35,994 nucleotides of DNA, from assembly GCA_903928915.1 (NCBI GenBank), contig CAIYSL010000111.1, forward strand, positions 1 through 35,994, read 5' to 3'. The notes beneath the pieces are model-generated. The model was not told the origin of the DNA and made no database searches. It saw nothing but the letters and a program-made list of their open reading frames with translations. A program made the translations under genes and the position numbers. This document shows positions 6,434-27,416 of this stretch, in pieces; position 1 is the stretch's first letter, and each line of letters opens with the position of its first letter. The DNA is from an uncultured Syntrophobacterales bacterium. GTDB taxonomy: Bacteria > Desulfobacterota > Syntrophia > Syntrophales > UBA5619.

Positions 6434-9685
<3,252 letters not shown>

Positions 9686-9827
9686 GGCAGATGCGGCCCT
9701 TCACCCCGGGGAAACGGTTGTCCCGCGGAATGGCGATTCTCCCCGAAAAGGAGCGGCAAGTCAACCATGCACTCGACCGTCCATTCCCGGCGCTGCACCG
9801 GCCGCACCGGCCGGCGGGAAAATCTCC

Positions 9828-9857
9828 TTGACAGGCCCCGGCTACTTCCCCTATCCT
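9828..9857 (+). promoter_or_regulatory. Sigma70-like promoter for the amino acid ABC transporter
   Basis: A perfect -35 TTGACA (9828-9833) is followed after 18 bp by TATCCT (9852-9857; four of six consensus bases). The predicted start is near 9864, about 105 nt before the lipoprotein ATG. It is the only good sigma70-like match seen in the 284-bp divergent region shared with the helicase fusion gene. Confidence 0.5.
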
Positions 9858-9969
9858 CCGCGGCAGGAAACATTCGTTCTTATCATTACTCCGGCAACTT
9901 ATGCGCCGACTCAGCCGGAGCAACCACGTATCACGGGAAGCTTGCTTCCGAAGAAGGAGATGGCTCGTT

Positions 9970-10710
9970 ATGAAGAAAATCGTGCTCCTTTTCTGCCTTC
10001 TTTCGCTGGTCCTGTGCGGATGCACAAGGAAAGAGGAGGTCAAGACGATCCGGGTGGCGGTGTGTCCCACCTCGCCCCCCAACCTGTACGAGGAAAACGG
10101 GAAATACCTGGGGCTGGACCTGGAGCTGTTCGCAGGGTTCTGCGCAGCCCGGGGGTACCGCCATACCGTCACCGCCTACGACTGGCAGGGCATGCTCGGC
10201 GCGGTGATGTCAGGACAGGCGGACGTGGCCTTCTCGGGCATTTCCATCACCGAGAAACGGAAGGAGAAGATGGATTTCTCCGCGCCCTACATGGACAACA
10301 CCTGGAACCTGGTCAGCATGAAGAAGCGGAACATCCTGATCAAGGACCTCGGCGAGCTGAAGAAATACTCGCTCGGCTTTCCCCGCGGCATGGCCTACAG
10401 CGCCTTCATCAAAGACGACCTGGAGCCCAAGGGGATCTACCGGTTGGACGCCGCCAAGATGTACCCCACCTACAACGAGGTGCTCGCCGATCTGCAGAAC
10501 GGCAACCTGGACCTGGCCTTCCTGGACGGCTCGGTCGCCTCGGTGTACAAGAAGAAGCTCGAAATCCAGGACAGCTACGTCTTCACCGGGTTCGACACCT
10601 TCGGACTGGCCTTTCCGAAAGGCTCTCCGCTCAGGGACGATTTCGACCGTTACCTCAAAGAACTCGGCCCCGAGAAGCTGAAGGCCCTGATCGGCAAGTG
10701 GCTGGGATAG
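9970..10710 (+). CDS. Polar amino acid ABC transporter substrate-binding lipoprotein
   Basis: A 246-residue family 3 solute-binding protein. The start at 9970 is chosen over the upstream ATG at 9901 because it gives a clean lipoprotein signal (MKK, hydrophobic core, lipobox LCGC with C18) and has AAGGAG ten bases before it. The mature part begins IRVAVCPTSPPNLYEENGKYLGLDLELF and contains the QADVAFSGISITEKRKEKMDFS-type segment diagnostic of the family (D and R that grip the amino acid carboxylate/amine groups). It is followed in order by permease, ATPase and second permease genes. The exact amino acid is not decidable; the NLD-LAFLDGS segment and the missing acidic/basic specificity clues leave glutamine, arginine/histidine and cystine as options. 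Confidence 0.92.
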   Translation: MKKIVLLFCLLSLVLCGCTRKEEVKTIRVAVCPTSPPNLYEENGKYLGLDLELFAGFCAARGYRHTVTAYDWQGMLGAVMSGQADVAFSGISITEKRKEKMDFSAPYMDNTWNLVSMKKRNILIKDLGELKKYSLGFPRGMAYSAFIKDDLEPKGIYRLDAAKMYPTYNEVLADLQNGNLDLAFLDGSVASVYKKKLEIQDSYVFTGFDTFGLAFPKGSPLRDDFDRYLKELGPEKLKALIGKWLG

Positions 10711-10729
10711 CGAGGCGGGTAACGGGCCG

Positions 10730-11389
10730 ATGAGCTTCTGGGACATCCTCGCGGTGCTGGCGGCAGGCGCGGGTATCACGCTCCTGCTGAGCGTGGCCTG
10801 TATGGCCGCGGCGCTGGCCGTGGGGCTGGCGGTCGCCCTGCTCAGCCGGTCCCGCTGGGCGCCCGTGCAGCGTCTGCTGGTTGGGTTCACCTTCGTGTTT
10901 CGCGGCATCCCGGTCCTGGTCCTGCTGTTTCTCGTCTTTTTCGGCCTCCCGGGGCTGGGCCTCCGGGTTCCGCCGTTCCTCTCCCTGGTCCTGACCCTGG
11001 GGCTCGTCTCCGGGGCCTACCTGGCGGAGATCTTCCGGGGCGCCATGAACGCCGTGAACCGCGAGGAGGTCCTGGCCGCCGAAGCGGCGGGAATGACGCG
11101 GGCGCAGGGTTTTACGTACATCCTGCTCCCGCAGATGTTTCGGTTTTCCATCCCCGGCATGATCAACGAGTTCACCGCGATCCTCAAGTACACCCCCTTT
11201 GCCTATACCGTGGGGATCCCCGAGATCATGAAGCGGGCCATGAGCCTGACCCCGGTGATCCTGCGCGGTCTGGAGGTCTACCTGGCCGTGGGGATCGTGT
11301 ACTATCTGATCTACAAGGCGTGCGTGGTGATCTTCTCGGCGCTGGAGAAGCGATTCCGCATCCCCGGGCTGTCCGCGCAGGAGAGGTGA
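10730..11389 (+). CDS. Amino acid ABC transporter permease (HisM/GlnP family), first subunit
   Basis: A 219-residue inner-membrane permease with about five helices. The family signature region is visible: GAYLAEIFRGAMNAV followed by EEVLAAEAAGMTRAQGFTYILLPQ (the EAA loop). It starts 19 bp after the binding-protein stop, with GAGG upstream. Together with the second permease it should form a heterodimeric channel, as in HisQM. The ATPase ATG lies two bases after its stop. Confidence 0.93.
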   Translation: MSFWDILAVLAAGAGITLLLSVACMAAALAVGLAVALLSRSRWAPVQRLLVGFTFVFRGIPVLVLLFLVFFGLPGLGLRVPPFLSLVLTLGLVSGAYLAEIFRGAMNAVNREEVLAAEAAGMTRAQGFTYILLPQMFRFSIPGMINEFTAILKYTPFAYTVGIPEIMKRAMSLTPVILRGLEVYLAVGIVYYLIYKACVVIFSALEKRFRIPGLSAQER

Positions 11390-21461: not shown

Positions 21462-22631
21462 CTATTTTCCGAAGGCCTTCTCGATCCGGACCATCGCCTC
21501 CTCCAGCCGGCTGTCGGCGACGGTGAGCGAGATCCGGATGAACCCCTCGCCGTACTGGCCGTAGGCGGTGCCCGAGGCGACGACGACCGCCGTCTTCTCG
21601 AACAGCTGGTTCGTGAACTCCAGCGAGCTCATCCCCTTGGGGGTCGGCACCCAGAGGTAGAAGGTCCCCTTCGGCGGGTTGAACTTGATTCCGATCCGCT
21701 CGAGGGTCGTGAGGACCCGCGTCCGCCTGCGGGCGTAGATGGCCATCATCTTCTCGATGTTTGCGGTCTCGTTGCGCAGCGCCTGGATCCCCGCGAACTG
21801 GACGGCGTTGAAGATCCCCGAGTCGGTGTTCTCCTTCACCTTGCTGATCGCCGCGATCAGGTCGGGGTTGCCGCAGGCCATCCCGATCCGCCAGCCCGTC
21901 ATGTTGTAGGGCTTCGACAGGGAGTTGAGCTCCACCCCCACGTCCATCGCCCCGGGACAGGACAGGAAGCTCAGCCGCTCCTGGCCGTCGAACAGCACCT
22001 CGCTGTAGGGGTTGTCGTAGCAGACGGCGATATCGTTGGCCTTGGCGAAGGCCACCAGCTTCACGAAGAATTCCCGGGTGGCGCAGGCGCCCGTCGGGTT
22101 GTTCGGGTAGTTCAGGAAGAGCGCCGTGGCCTTCTTGCAGACATCCGCCGGGATCTTGTCGAACTCGGGCAGGTAGTCGTTCGCGGGCAGGATCGGCACG
22201 TTGTAGGGGATCCCTTCGCCCATCAGGATGCTCGCCCGGTAGGCGGGATAGCCCGGGTCGGTCATCAGGACCACGTCGCCGGGGTTGACCCGGGCCATGA
22301 CGAAGTGGTGGCACCCCTCCTTCGACCCGATCAAACCCAGGACCTCCGTGGCCGGGTCGAGCTTCACCCCGTAGCGGATCTCGTACCAGCGGGCGACTTC
22401 CTGGCGGAAGGCGAACATCCCCTTCTCCTCGTCCGTGGGGTAGCGGTGGTTCTCCGGGTCATGGGCCGTCCGGCAGAGCTCCGCGATGATCGAATCCGGG
22501 GTCGGGTCCACCGGGTCGCCGATGGCGAGGCTGATCACGTCGACGCCGTCGGCCTTGGCCTTGGCGATCTTCTTGCGCAACTCCATGAACAGGTAGGGGG
22601 GGATCTTCTTCAACCGTTCCGCAATCTGCAT
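21462..22631 (-). CDS. dapL: LL-diaminopimelate aminotransferase
   Basis: A 389-residue PLP-dependent class I/II aminotransferase that converts tetrahydrodipicolinate and glutamate directly to LL-2,6-diaminopimelate, bypassing the succinylase and acetylase routes. Visible: SLAIGDPVDPTP near the N-terminus (substrate-contact segment), NYPNNPTGA (172-180), D206 and Y209 for PLP, Schiff-base K240 in SLSKPYNMTGWRIG and the C-terminal GFIRISLT with the carboxylate-binding arginine. AGGAG lies about 11 bases before the ATG. dapF is upstream in the same direction, which makes the assignment to lysine/peptidoglycan synthesis strong; an LL-DAP-specific transaminase cannot be told from a related one by motif alone. 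Confidence 0.93.
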   Translation of the reverse strand: MQIAERLKKIPPYLFMELRKKIAKAKADGVDVISLAIGDPVDPTPDSIIAELCRTAHDPENHRYPTDEEKGMFAFRQEVARWYEIRYGVKLDPATEVLGLIGSKEGCHHFVMARVNPGDVVLMTDPGYPAYRASILMGEGIPYNVPILPANDYLPEFDKIPADVCKKATALFLNYPNNPTGACATREFFVKLVAFAKANDIAVCYDNPYSEVLFDGQERLSFLSCPGAMDVGVELNSLSKPYNMTGWRIGMACGNPDLIAAISKVKENTDSGIFNAVQFAGIQALRNETANIEKMMAIYARRRTRVLTTLERIGIKFNPPKGTFYLWVPTPKGMSSLEFTNQLFEKTAVVVASGTAYGQYGEGFIRISLTVADSRLEEAMVRIEKAFGK

Positions 22632-22831: not shown

Positions 22832-23653
22832 TCACCTCTTCCAGGCTTCATCCCATAGCTTTCCCTGATACACCACCGTCGCCGTTCCTTCAAGATAAAC
22901 GTTCCGGAACCCCTCGGCCGTTCCCTCGAAGTAGACCCTGAGCAGCTCGCCGCTCTGCACCCGCACGTCCACCGGGGACTGCACCAGCCCTTTCCGGCTG
23001 GCGATCAGGGCCGAGGCCACGGAGCCGGTCCCGCAGGCCAGGGTCTCGTCCTCGACGCCCCGCTCGTAGGTCCGGACGCGGAGGCTGTGGTCGTCCGTGA
23101 CGGCGACGAAGTTGGCGTTCGTCCCCGCCGGCCGGTAGTGGTCGTGGGTGCGGATCGCGCGCCCCGTGGTGAAGACGTCGAACCCCTCCAGGTCGCGGAG
23201 GAAATGGACGACGTGCGGCACGCCGGTGTTTACGCTGTGGACGGTCAGGAGCTGATTGCCGATCGTGATGCGGTCGTCCATCACCAGGGAGTGGGGATCG
23301 GTCAGGCGGAGCTTCACCACGTCGCCCGTCACCTCGGCGTCGATGATCCCCGCGCCCGTCTCGAAGGACATCCGCTGGCCGGCGATCCCCTGGAGATAGG
23401 CGAACCGGGCGGCGCAGCGGCCGCCGTTTCCGCACATCTCCGCCTCGGAGCCGTCGGCGTTGTGGAACCGCCACTTGAAATCGACCTTCGCGGACGGCTC
23501 GATCACGAACAGGCCGTCGGCCCCGACCGAGACCTGCCGCCGGCAGACGCTCCGCGCAAAGGCCGCAAGGTCCCCCACGGCCAGCGACCCGTCCCGGTTG
23601 TCGATCAGGATGAAATCGTTGCCGCTCCCGCTCATCTTGGTGAACTCAATCAT
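22832..23653 (-). CDS. dapF: Diaminopimelate epimerase
   Basis: A 273-residue cofactor-independent epimerase converting LL- to meso-diaminopimelate, the next step after DapL. The two catalytic cysteines are in MCGNGGRC (C74) and LACGTGS (C207), each in its family context; SGSGNDFILID opens the protein and NTGVPHVV precedes the second half. The frame is open further upstream, but ATG 23653 has GGAGGAGG before it and matches the family's N-terminus (MIEFTKMSG). It starts 17 bp after the stop of the PEP/pyruvate-binding protein gene, and dapL follows after the palindromic gap. Confidence 0.96.
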   Translation of the reverse strand: MIEFTKMSGSGNDFILIDNRDGSLAVGDLAAFARSVCRRQVSVGADGLFVIEPSAKVDFKWRFHNADGSEAEMCGNGGRCAARFAYLQGIAGQRMSFETGAGIIDAEVTGDVVKLRLTDPHSLVMDDRITIGNQLLTVHSVNTGVPHVVHFLRDLEGFDVFTTGRAIRTHDHYRPAGTNANFVAVTDDHSLRVRTYERGVEDETLACGTGSVASALIASRKGLVQSPVDVRVQSGELLRVYFEGTAEGFRNVYLEGTATVVYQGKLWDEAWKR

Positions 23654-23670
23654 TGCCCCTCCTCCAACAA

Positions 23671-26286
23671 CTATTCCAGATAACAGACGGCCCGCTGGCT
23701 CTGCGGATCGGCCACGACGCGGGCGAAACGCCCGCCTGTCGCCGCCGGCAGATCGAACACCCTGACGATCTCCTGAAACCGCTCGGCGCCGGGAACAAGC
23801 TCCGTCAGGATGTTGGGCAGGCACGAGAACAGCGCCCCGTTGAACTCCGCCTCCGGGTCGTTCGGATAGACGGGCAGGTAGATGATCTGCGCCTCCACGA
23901 GGTCGAGGAAGAAGTGGGTCCCGTAGGAGACATCCGGCACCTGTCCCGCCTCCTCCCGCGCCATCTCCACGAGGACCGCGGTGTTGTTGATGTCGGCATA
24001 GCTCACGTTAACGCCGAGCTCGATGTTGCTGCTCCCCCACCTGCCCGGTCCCATCATCAGGATCCGGCCCGCGGCAACGGCGCTGTGCTCGTTGATCCGC
24101 CCGACGATGCGGCCGATGCTCTTCTTCAGGTCCGGCGAGGCGAGGGCGGAGTACCGCTCCGGGTCGATGTACAGCAGATACCGGACCGGGCCCGTGTCGC
24201 CGCCGCTGATCGTCCGGCCCGACCGGAACAGGAGCCGCTCCGGCGGGATGTCTTCGGGAAGCCGGATCGGCCCCGTCGCCCCGGGGAGCCGCATCGGGCG
24301 GCACTGGAGGAGGTTGATCCGGATCCTCCCGGTCGCGTCCACCGCGGCGGTGAATTCCGTGTCGAGCGGCTGGCCGTAGACCTTTTCGATGCGCACGAGC
24401 ATATCGTCGATGATCTTCACGAAGTCCGTCCGGCCGATCAGGTTGTTGGCGGTCATCACCAGCGGCTCGCTCGTCGTCTCGAGCCGGCTGGTCCAGGGAT
24501 CCGCCGGGTAGCCCTCCTTCATCAGCGAAACCAGCAGGTGCAGGTTCGGGTAGTCGCGGTCGGCCAGGAGCTCCTCAAGCGGCAGCGTCGCGAACTCGTT
24601 GTGCGCGAGGTCTATCAGGTCCACCTCGGTCTGCGAATACTTCGCGATCCGGACCCCTGTCTCGGGACGGAGCTGGGGATGGCTGACGGCGATCATCCGG
24701 GGGTAGTCGTTCCCGACCCGGTTGACCGCCCGGGTCCCCAGGCCGAAGACGAGGCGGATCATCCCCCGCTTCGGGTCGATCCGGTCGGTCCAGGCATAGA
24801 GGTTCCGAGAGAAGGCCACCCCGGCCAGGGTCGGGAAAAAGTACTGCCGGTAGGGGGTCCCGGAGACGCGCTGGACGAGGATCGCCATCTGCTCGTCGCT
24901 CTCGCCCAGCCCCCGGCTGCGGCGGTAGGTCATGGCGTCGGGGTTGAGGGCGCTGGCGTAGATCAGCTTCACCGCCCGGAGGAACGCTTCGAGCCGCTCC
25001 TCCGGGGGGCCCTGGTTCGCGCAGTACTCGCTGTGGTACTTCCCGGCGAAGGCGTTCCCGAAGCTGTCCTCGAGCAGGCTCGAGGAGCGGGCGATGATCG
25101 GCGCCTGCCCGAAGTAGGCGAGCATGTCCCGAAACTGCTCCATGATCTCCGGGGAAAACCGCCCGGCCAGGAACCGTTTTTCCACCTCGGCGAACTCCTC
25201 GCGGGAGATGTTCGCCGCCCGGGAAAGCTGGAGGCGCATCCGGAAGAGGTCGTTGTTCACCAGGAAGGTGAAGAACACGTCGGAGCCGATGTAGAAGGAG
25301 TCGTGCGGTTCGAGGACCTCCCGGAAATCGACCTCGCCCGGTTCGGAAAGGAGTATCCGCCGGGCGAGGAGCATCCCGGTCGCCTTGCCGCCGATCCGTC
25401 CCGACCCGATCAGGCGGTCGCGGATGGCGAACAGGTCGTCGAGGGTCATGGTGGCGTCGACCATCCGGTTGAACTCCGGATGGGTCCCGATGATCATCCG
25501 GGAGAGCTCCTGCTTGAGGGCGGCCACCTCGGGCGTCTTCTCGTCGAGGTCCAGCCCGGTCTCATGGTACTGCATCAGCCGCCGGTAGACGCTTTCCCAG
25601 GGGGCGATCGATCTCGTCCGCACCTGGAGCGGCTTCTTGATCGCCGAGACCGCGACGGCGGCGGCGTCACCGCTGCCGAACACCGGCGTCCAGACGGGAT
25701 CGGTCATGCTGTGGGGGAGGAACATCTGGGGCGAATAGCGGTCCCAGACCTTGAGGGGGTGGAGGTACATGCCCCCGTCGACCCGGTACACGTCCAAGAG
25801 GAGCTGGGTCGTGTCGCGGATCCGGGCCACGGCCCGATGGCTGTGGCGGCCGCGGGTGAGGGCGAAGTACGCCACCGTGTCGAGCTCGAACAGGAAAGGA
25901 CAGGTCACCTGGAAAAAATTCGCCAGCAGTTCGTCCGTCGCCCACTCGACGACGAGCGCCGAGAGGTTGTCGAAGACGTAGAACACCTCCTTCCCCTCCG
26001 CCTCGATGATCTGGTTGAGATTCCCGCTGAAGGAATCGAACCCGGCGTGGGGACTCACCTCGATCGTGGTGAGGCCGTCCAGCGGCGGCAGGATCGGGGG
26101 ATGGGGTGCGAACCGGAAATAGATCGTCCGCCTGCCGTCGCGGATCGCCTGCCGGGCGAAGGGCTCGGCGAAGAGGGAATAGTCCGCCAGGCGGTCCACC
26201 TGCCAGACGACGTTATCGCCCAGCCGGAGTTCCTGGAGCACCTGATCGAGCGGCGGCAGGCCGCTGGCAACGCTTCGCGATGTCAT
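23671..26286 (-). CDS. PEP/pyruvate-binding (PPDK_N) protein with P-loop-less KaiC-like N-terminal domain
   Basis: An 871-residue protein. Start 26286 is chosen because AGGGGAAG precedes it and the upstream frame is low-complexity arginine/proline. Residues 8-195 run like a KaiC/RAD55 RecA-fold domain (PPLDQVLQELRLGDNVVWQV..., RTIYFRF, then a Walker B-like FYVFDNLSALV at 102-112), but the P-loop is replaced by VDRLADYS and has no GKT. Residues 285-870 carry PEP synthase nucleotide-binding (PPDK_N) features: GRIGGKATGM (296-305), IIARSSSLLEDSFGNAFAGKY (397-417), and MMGPGRWGSSNIELGV near the end. No phosphohistidine swivel or PEP-binding TIM barrel follows, so it cannot perform the full PEP synthase cycle alone. 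It could phosphorylate or adenylate another protein; the role is unknown. It lies 17 bp before dapF. Confidence 0.85.
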   Translation of the reverse strand: MTSRSVASGLPPLDQVLQELRLGDNVVWQVDRLADYSLFAEPFARQAIRDGRRTIYFRFAPHPPILPPLDGLTTIEVSPHAGFDSFSGNLNQIIEAEGKEVFYVFDNLSALVVEWATDELLANFFQVTCPFLFELDTVAYFALTRGRHSHRAVARIRDTTQLLLDVYRVDGGMYLHPLKVWDRYSPQMFLPHSMTDPVWTPVFGSGDAAAVAVSAIKKPLQVRTRSIAPWESVYRRLMQYHETGLDLDEKTPEVAALKQELSRMIIGTHPEFNRMVDATMTLDDLFAIRDRLIGSGRIGGKATGMLLARRILLSEPGEVDFREVLEPHDSFYIGSDVFFTFLVNNDLFRMRLQLSRAANISREEFAEVEKRFLAGRFSPEIMEQFRDMLAYFGQAPIIARSSSLLEDSFGNAFAGKYHSEYCANQGPPEERLEAFLRAVKLIYASALNPDAMTYRRSRGLGESDEQMAILVQRVSGTPYRQYFFPTLAGVAFSRNLYAWTDRIDPKRGMIRLVFGLGTRAVNRVGNDYPRMIAVSHPQLRPETGVRIAKYSQTEVDLIDLAHNEFATLPLEELLADRDYPNLHLLVSLMKEGYPADPWTSRLETTSEPLVMTANNLIGRTDFVKIIDDMLVRIEKVYGQPLDTEFTAAVDATGRIRINLLQCRPMRLPGATGPIRLPEDIPPERLLFRSGRTISGGDTGPVRYLLYIDPERYSALASPDLKKSIGRIVGRINEHSAVAAGRILMMGPGRWGSSNIELGVNVSYADINNTAVLVEMAREEAGQVPDVSYGTHFFLDLVEAQIIYLPVYPNDPEAEFNGALFSCLPNILTELVPGAERFQEIVRVFDLPAATGGRFARVVADPQSQRAVCYLE

Positions 26287-26459
26287 CTTCCCCTGTTCTC
26301 CTGGTACCCGGACGCCGCCCGCAGCCCCCCTTCGCGGGGGACGGGCGCCCCCCCCGGGGAGGGTAATCCGCTCCGCCGCGCCGGATCGCCGCCGGGGTGG
26401 CCGGCGAGCAGGCCCGAGGGCGGGAAAGCCCCCGCGGCCGGCATGCCGTCCGCTTCGCG

Positions 26460-27416
26460 TCACTCCCCCGGTCCGACGATGTGGGTGCGGAGCGTCATCA
26501 GCCCTTCGATGGCGCACTCGACCACGTCGCCGGGCTTGAGGAACAGTTCGGCGGCGTTGGGCTTGCCGATGGCGGTGCCCCCCGGCGTCCCCGTGGCGAA
26601 CAGATCCCCGGGCTCGAAGGGGATGTACCGCGAGAAGTGGTCGATGATGTCGGGCAGCTTCCAGATCTGATCAACCGTGTTGAACCGCATCCGCTGTTCA
26701 CCGTTCACCGTGCAAGTCATCCAGAGGTCGTAGGGATCGGGAATCTCGTCGATGGTGACGATGCAGGGGCCCAGCGGCCCGAACCCGGGGATGTTCTTCC
26801 CGGTCCAGAAGCGCGAGCCCGAGGCCACCTCGCGCTTCTGCAGGGCCCGGTCGGTGAGGTCGTTCAGGATCGTGACCCCGGCGACGTACTTGAACGCCTC
26901 CGCCTTCCCCACCCCGAGCGCCCGCCTGCCGATGACGAACACCAGCTCCGGCTCGTAGTCGAGCAGGACGACTCCTTCGGGACGCACGACCCGCCAGTCG
27001 TGGCCCGAAAGGCAGTAGTTGTACTTGACGAACCCCGTGGGCTCCTGGGGCGTCTCCAGGATGAGGTCGTTCTTCCGGAGCTCCTCCAGATGCTTCCGGT
27101 AGTTCTTCCCCACGCAGAGGAACTTCTCCGCGTCGGGAACCGGGGGATGGAAGATGACCGTCTCCGGGGAATAGCTCCACTCCCCCTCCGCTGCCCTGCC
27201 GGCCTTTGCCGCATACGCGATCAGGCTGCGCACCCGCTCGAGGCCGGCCTCTCCGGCCGCCAGGAGCCCCCGCATCGTGGCCGGCAGCGGCAAGCCGGGA
27301 GCCTCGCGCCGCTGCGCCCGGTCCAGGGCCGCCAGGTCGAGCACGGCGCCGTCGGCCATGACGCCGATCCGGGGCAGGCTGTGGTCGCTCTGCGGCGCAA
27401 AGGTCGCTAGTTGCAT
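26460..27416 (-). CDS. Fumarylacetoacetate hydrolase (FAH) family enzyme
   Basis: A 318-residue cytosolic hydrolase/hydratase/decarboxylase of the FAH fold. Metal ligands are visible as E155 and E157 (DYEPELVFVIG) with D186 (LNDLTDR), followed by FWTGKNIPGFGPLGP and the substrate-side GDLFATGTPGGTAIG; the N-terminal 95 residues are the usual lid. AAGGAG lies about 11 bases before the ATG. Members cleave C-C bonds in beta-dicarbonyl compounds or hydrate/decarboxylate 2-oxo acids. Its position after the PanB homologue and iron alcohol dehydrogenase suggests action on a 2-oxo acid or acylpyruvate intermediate of the same pathway. The stop is 173 bp before the PPDK_N gene. Confidence 0.92.
   Translation of the reverse strand: MQLATFAPQSDHSLPRIGVMADGAVLDLAALDRAQRREAPGLPLPATMRGLLAAGEAGLERVRSLIAYAAKAGRAAEGEWSYSPETVIFHPPVPDAEKFLCVGKNYRKHLEELRKNDLILETPQEPTGFVKYNYCLSGHDWRVVRPEGVVLLDYEPELVFVIGRRALGVGKAEAFKYVAGVTILNDLTDRALQKREVASGSRFWTGKNIPGFGPLGPCIVTIDEIPDPYDLWMTCTVNGEQRMRFNTVDQIWKLPDIIDHFSRYIPFEPGDLFATGTPGGTAIGKPNAAELFLKPGDVVECAIEGLMTLRTHIVGPGE

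Follow-up and report, generated by a model that had tools for sequence, protein, structure and literature searches.

A KaiC-fold domain without a P-loop joined to a dikinase-type ATP-grasp domain and a probable divergent swivel in a protein family linked to glutamate dehydrogenase

One gene of 871 codons in the window, the whole stretch of 35,994 nucleotides analyzed here, encodes a member of a multi-phylum protein family. We propose, at a probability of roughly 0.55, that the family derives from a dikinase and acts as an ATP-to-histidine phosphotransferase whose N-terminal domain is exchangeable, and that it controls or serves glutamate and ammonium metabolism. The proposal was drawn from sequence comparison and a predicted structure. 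We favor regulation over a role in small-molecule catalysis for two reasons: among the relatives, signaling domains take the place of the N-terminal part, and the neighboring genes include the nitrogen repressor NrpR and NifA-like regulators. The parts of the protein and two neighboring genes are as follows.

23671..26286, minus strand: whole gene, 871 aa; KaiC-fold domain, helical linker, PPDK_N ATP-grasp domain and swivel-like C-terminal domain
25675..26286, minus strand: KaiC/RecA-like domain without P-loop, residues 1-204 (VIA-align and hhalign to KaiC)
26176..26220, minus strand: residues 23-37, GDNVVWQVDRLADYS, located where KaiC has its P-loop strand and loop (hhalign, opposite the KaiC P-loop)
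25969..25971, minus strand: D106, Walker-B-like aspartate (VFYVFDNLS)
25399..25674, minus strand: linker and helical segment, residues 205-296 (helices in the model; lowest pLDDT at 218-223)
24289..25398, minus strand: PPDK_N ATP-grasp domain, residues 297-666 (Pfam PF01326)
23674..24279, minus strand: C-terminal domain, probable divergent phosphohistidine swivel, residues 670-871 (structural alignment to 2ols; motif via receiver-fused relatives)
24034..24051, minus strand: GPGRWG motif, residues 746-751, nearly invariant
23908..23928, minus strand: SYGTHFF, residues 787-793, in which H791 is the candidate phosphohistidine (101 of 101 homologues have G[TSA]H[FL]F)
22832..23653, minus strand: dapF, diaminopimelate epimerase, downstream of the gene (TIGR00652, 255.6 bits)
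21462..22631, minus strand: aminotransferase after dapF, probably LL-diaminopimelate aminotransferase (dapL); Pfam Aminotran_1_2, the dapL name taken from context

The reading frame begins with an ATG at 26286, its stop ends at 23671, and dapF starts 17 bp further on, at 23653, so that the interval and spacing given in the original prediction were both correct. A match to the protein was found in 39 of 61 related genomes, and about 90 columns are invariant in an alignment of 89 sequences that share 38-85% identity with the window protein. This conservation ruled out a chance or antisense open reading frame, and the gene was confirmed as real and conserved in hundreds of genomes. The open frame on the plus strand at 23653-26670 (1005 aa) is antisense to the gene, as is typical of G+C-rich coding DNA, and was not accepted as a gene. 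The gene is present as a single copy in its own 4.3-Mb genome, where the other PPDK_N segments belong to separate proteins. Judged from its relatives, the window falls near the Syntrophaceae/Smithellaceae within Thermodesulfobacteriota. An unusually long protein with PPDK_N and PEP-utilizers domains, in a frame of 1434 aa, was also observed in this genome (G000:C93:35473-36897, L033).

An AlphaFold2 model calculated with the 89-sequence alignment had a mean pLDDT of 87.9 and a pTM of 0.88. Residues 1-215 of the model aligned to KaiC (8zn5_C) with a VIA-align Z of 21.0 over 199 residues at an rmsd of 2.8 Å, and the RecA-like relatives FlaH and PH0284 were matched as well. In hhalign, KaiC proteins from related genomes were found at Prob 80 and E 1e-5, with VASGLPPLDQVLQELRLGDNVVWQVDRLADY placed opposite the KaiC segment that carries the P-loop. 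None of the 101 homologues contains a Walker A motif, and all 101 contain GDNxV, located where the P-loop strand begins. The Walker-B-like D106 is invariant in the 89 sequences. The model and the profile alignment thus agree with the original prediction of a KaiC-like N-terminus that keeps a Walker-B-like strand and has no P-loop, and the domain was confirmed on these grounds as a KaiC/RecA fold that lost its P-loop. The protein has the fold, the STGxxxLD entry motif and the Walker-B-like aspartate in common with the KaiC, FlaH and RadA-like RecA-fold ATPases, whereas it lacks their P-loop and, in the alignment to KaiC, has RFAxH in place of the catalytic glutamate pair. Weak Pfam matches to MEDS and PAXNEB/Elp4 were found in some members (3 and 6 of 20; best E 0.001), and neither family was matched by the window protein itself. 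We take MEDS (the DcmR sensory domain) and PAXNEB/Elp4 to be the same kind of degenerate, P-loop-less RecA-fold domain; to our knowledge, no fusion of either to PPDK_N is known.

The ATP-grasp domain was matched by PF01326 at 153.9 bits against a cut-off of 27, which bears out the earlier assignment of this part to PPDK_N and PEP synthase. K301 (GGK), R400 (RSSS), E644, and Q661 and R663 (Gln-x-Arg) are invariant in the 89 sequences, and in PPDK these residues belong to the ATP site. The model aligned to the ATP domain of rifampin phosphotransferase (5hv6) with a VIA-align Z of 21.7, and a plain sequence search against the PDB returned only ATP domains of PEP synthases, as weak matches. Since the Pfam match, the invariant residues of the ATP site and the fit to the rifampin phosphotransferase domain point in the same direction, the window protein is likely to bind ATP.

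The original prediction held that the protein has no His-swivel. Although Pfam indeed finds no PF00391 in the window protein, this part of the prediction was probably wrong, given an invariant histidine motif and a structural alignment that runs through the swivel region of PEP synthase. H791 is present in all 101 KaiC-type proteins and invariant in the 89-sequence alignment. When the whole model was aligned to PEP synthase 2ols by VIA-align, residues 262-871 of the model were placed against residues 13-466 of the chain (364 residues, 4.2 Å), a range that extends from the ATP domain through the end of the swivel region. The alignment to rifampin phosphotransferase 5hv3 reached residue 866, near the end of that chain; the match lists for the whole model were filled by KaiC and PPDK entries. 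Profile comparison by hhalign of the C-terminal domain with PF00391-type swivels from related genomes and with 28 PEP synthases was not significant in any variant (E 0.02-0.66), and its low-scoring path was collinear from LLQxRP to LGIP.

The receiver-fused relatives read W-x-x-I-(x)n-A-I-V ... S-H-x7-L-G-I-P-Y, matching the swivel motif of PEP synthase (W..I...AIV...SH-x7-LGIP), and by way of these relatives SYGTHFF of the window protein aligns with the PEP synthase swivel segment. The C-terminal domain is common to the receiver-fused proteins and the window protein, which matches one of them up to residue 938 of the latter at E 2e-39. The pattern W..[IM].{3,6}[AG][IV][VI].{6,30}[SC]H.{7}[LM]G[IV], which was chosen after the sequences had been inspected, occurs in most receiver-fused proteins of the window's phylum; a stricter form was found in 25 of 28 PEP synthases, and no occurrence outside PPDK-like proteins was found in 3.2 million background residues. 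Neither the Bacteroidales members nor the KaiC-type proteins match the pattern, and the motif is more eroded in the KaiC type than in the receiver type. Since the receiver-fused relatives have the swivel motif of PEP synthase around this histidine, the phosphohistidine is likely to be H791, and we consider it quite probable that the C-terminal domain is a divergent swivel.

The window protein ends after this domain and no PEP/pyruvate barrel was matched in Pfam, as had been predicted. A neighboring gene might have supplied the swivel or the barrel. A profile HMM of the PEP synthase swivel and barrel, which recovered 30 of 30 PEP-utilizer controls, gave no match among the 2256 open reading frames of 80 loci, and a separate partner gene of this kind was rejected for those loci. 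The earlier view that the protein is not a normal metabolic dikinase was likewise supported.

At least 577 loci were found in a scan of named genomes. The best 80 of these, most of them metagenome-assembled so that single contigs may be misplaced, were distributed over Thermodesulfobacteriota, Myxococcota, Omnitrophota, Planctomycetota, Chloroflexota, Bacillota, Acidobacteriota, Verrucomicrobiota, Methanosarcinaceae and others. Where annotation was seen, it was only "PEP/pyruvate-binding domain-containing protein". The N-terminal part is swapped among the relatives and consists of a KaiC fold, tandem receivers or a helical domain. A tree built on the ATP-grasp and C-terminal domains, which all types share, contained three groups corresponding to these types, with labels assigned by a crude rule that split the receiver rows between "REC" and "other" and left two "other" rows, L238 and L176, within the KaiC group. 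Of the two receivers in the receiver type, only the second has a full phosphorylation site (VEDS, ISD and DKN); the acceptor aspartate is missing from the first. Members of the receiver-fused branch (L178, L212-L224 and L180, P0003) usually adjoin a glutamate dehydrogenase (GDH) gene.

Neighboring genes, assigned by homology searches, indicate that the family-wide partner is ammonium assimilation. Of 80 loci, 40 have GDH within 6 kb, and 52 have at least one of GDH, glutamate synthase (GOGAT) and NrpR. Within 1.5 kb, GDH was found at 39 of 101 KaiC-type genes versus none of 90 control loci, which were carriers of PEP-utilizers, PEP synthases or KaiC/RadA genes; in these and the other linkage counts, related genomes are non-independent samples. 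A receiver-type query yielded 30 loci, among them receiver, helical and KaiC types, and 22 of these have GDH within the same distance. Counting only directly adjacent genes, GDH was upstream in 15 of 52 loci and downstream in 8 of 59. It was just upstream on the same strand in 15 loci and convergent within 400 bp in 4, and in the others it was more distant. At L178 it lies directly upstream of the receiver-type gene, and gdhA and the receiver-type gene of Parabacteroides distasonis are divergently oriented. Since gene order and strand vary, the linkage has been kept or rebuilt through rearrangement, and it spans several phyla, two domains of life and the three N-terminal types. GOGAT, NrpR, NifA-like activators, CarA and CarB recur near the gene, and CTP synthase is also among the neighbors. 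The genes carA and/or carB, which encode glutamine-dependent enzymes, were observed near the gene at L046, L085, L100, L103, L105 and L114, on several Omnitrophota and other contigs.

In the window, the neighborhood is of another kind. The gene is followed by dapF and the probable dapL and then by a gene for a YchF-like GTPase, and a gene of the fumarylacetoacetate-hydrolase family lies upstream. The original prediction had placed the gene in a lysine operon. The linkage to dapF and dapL was found on about eleven contigs, all from close relatives of the window and with some of these relatives lacking it, and in those that have it the aminotransferase adjoins dapF in the same way; no dapF or dapL was found beside the gene at other loci within the DNA examined. 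Synteny therefore ruled out lysine biosynthesis as the family-wide role and showed the dapF linkage to be local, the family-wide partners being GDH, glutamate synthase and NrpR. The only GDH of the window genome lies on a different contig, and in the window's clade dapF and dapL occupy the place held by GDH elsewhere. The dapL product is a glutamate-using aminotransferase. In this clade the partner may differ. In the window itself, diaminopimelate synthesis may have become the target, or the gene may merely have been relocated.

In the proposed phosphotransferase, ATP would phosphorylate or pyrophosphorylate H791, as in PEP synthase, and the swivel would shuttle the phosphoryl group from the ATP site to an acceptor selected by the N-terminal domain or by a partner protein. 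The N-terminal domain, which is a KaiC fold here and tandem receivers or a helical domain in the relatives, would be the sensor or docking part, and the protein would thereby control glutamate and ammonium metabolism or catalyze an ATP-dependent step of it. The wider genomic context is compatible with the earlier suggestion of a regulator or protein kinase-like enzyme. A more specific form is dikinase-derived signaling, in which the swivel histidine phosphorylated by ATP would donate its phosphoryl group to a nitrogen-metabolism protein and the N-terminal domains would be interchangeable plug-ins. The receiver-fused branch, whose second receiver keeps the acidic pair, the acceptor aspartate and the lysine, would then form a His-to-Asp relay in which an ATP-grasp domain takes the role of the histidine kinase. 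We put this form forward only tentatively.

Less likely than the proposed phosphotransferase is a small-molecule enzyme, that is, a dikinase-type ligase or phosphotransferase activating a glutamate or diaminopimelate metabolite, with the KaiC-fold domain binding the substrate. Rifampin phosphotransferase (RPH) and PigC/RedH, the PPDK_N enzymes known to lack a PEP barrel, belong to this kind and were among the nearest NCBIfam and structure matches, the neighbors are mostly glutamate and glutamine enzymes, including CarA/CarB and CTP synthase, and the many invariant N-terminal residues would suit a binding site. However, in relatives that keep the linkage to GDH, receivers or a helical domain replace the part that would hold the substrate, a pattern more easily explained by sensors or adaptors. 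A reading in line with the original prediction is an ATP-binding regulator with no phosphohistidine step, in which the ATP-grasp domain would only sense ATP or phosphorylate a protein directly and the C-terminal domain would be unrelated to swivels. The structural alignments through the swivel region in two templates and the collinear W..I...AIV, SH and LGIP motifs of the receiver-fused relatives make this improbable, despite the lack of a Pfam swivel or a significant profile match. That the KaiC-fold domain is itself a lost ATPase would suit a degenerate, inactive PEP synthase remnant kept as a scaffold; we regard such a remnant as very unlikely, since neither the ATP-site residues nor H791 vary between bacteria and archaea, even though the sequences are only about 40% identical.

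PEP synthase and pyruvate phosphate dikinase have an ATP-grasp domain with the ATP-site residues followed by the swivel histidine, an order in which the window protein agrees if H791 is, as is probable, that histidine. The window protein differs from them in having no PEP/pyruvate barrel, a probable swivel too divergent for Pfam and an additional KaiC-fold N-terminus. RPH and PigC/RedH combine a PPDK_N ATP domain and a swivel with another third domain in place of the PEP barrel; in the window protein, with its probable swivel, the third domain is the N-terminal KaiC fold and the similarity is only distant, and those enzymes act in drug modification and prodigiosin synthesis whereas the present family is linked to glutamate metabolism. 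EI-Ntr (PtsP) of the nitrogen PTS is presumably comparable in the way it works, with a sensory N-terminal domain, a swivel histidine and regulation tied to nitrogen status, but it uses PEP and a PEP barrel where the present family would use ATP and an ATP-grasp domain. The Parabacteroides protein WP_041525632.1 ("PEP/pyruvate-binding domain-containing protein") resembles the window protein in its PPDK_N domain and GPGRWG...GTHFF module and differs in having two receiver-like domains in place of the KaiC fold; its gene adjoins gdhA, GDH being a neighbor of many other genes of the family.

No paper on the family or its context (KaiC with PPDK_N, GDH with PPDK or PEP synthase, swivel with receiver, GDH histidine phosphorylation) was found in open PMC full text, subscription literature being outside the scope of the search, and the MEDS/DcmR literature in open PMC held nothing on the window protein. 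The individual parts are known. Neither their combination, nor the probable hidden swivel, nor the link to GDH is described in the open full text searched, subscription literature aside. If the proposed phosphotransferase is correct, a large multi-phylum family would be an ATP-driven histidine phosphotransferase tied to GDH, an ammonium entry point into metabolism. It would show a dikinase fold turned regulator, in which the PEP barrel was replaced by sensor-like domains, among them a KaiC fold that has lost its ATPase. The position of the gene beside GDH in many bacteria and some archaea points to a form of ATP-driven control over nitrogen metabolism that would be new.

In a relative at L175:733-3945, the PPDK_N domain and GTHFF module are followed by a C-terminal nucleotidyltransferase (NTP_transf_2) domain, and a GDH match lies just upstream. 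An Omnitrophota contig with NrpR and two GDH genes carries two KaiC-type copies from different subclades that face each other (L049:5632-8238 and 8342-10954). In the window's own genus, a relative near a GDH (L176:1458-3314) has no KaiC-fold domain and has lost typical residues (RPSSLREDVFENASAGKF), and is probably a decaying copy.
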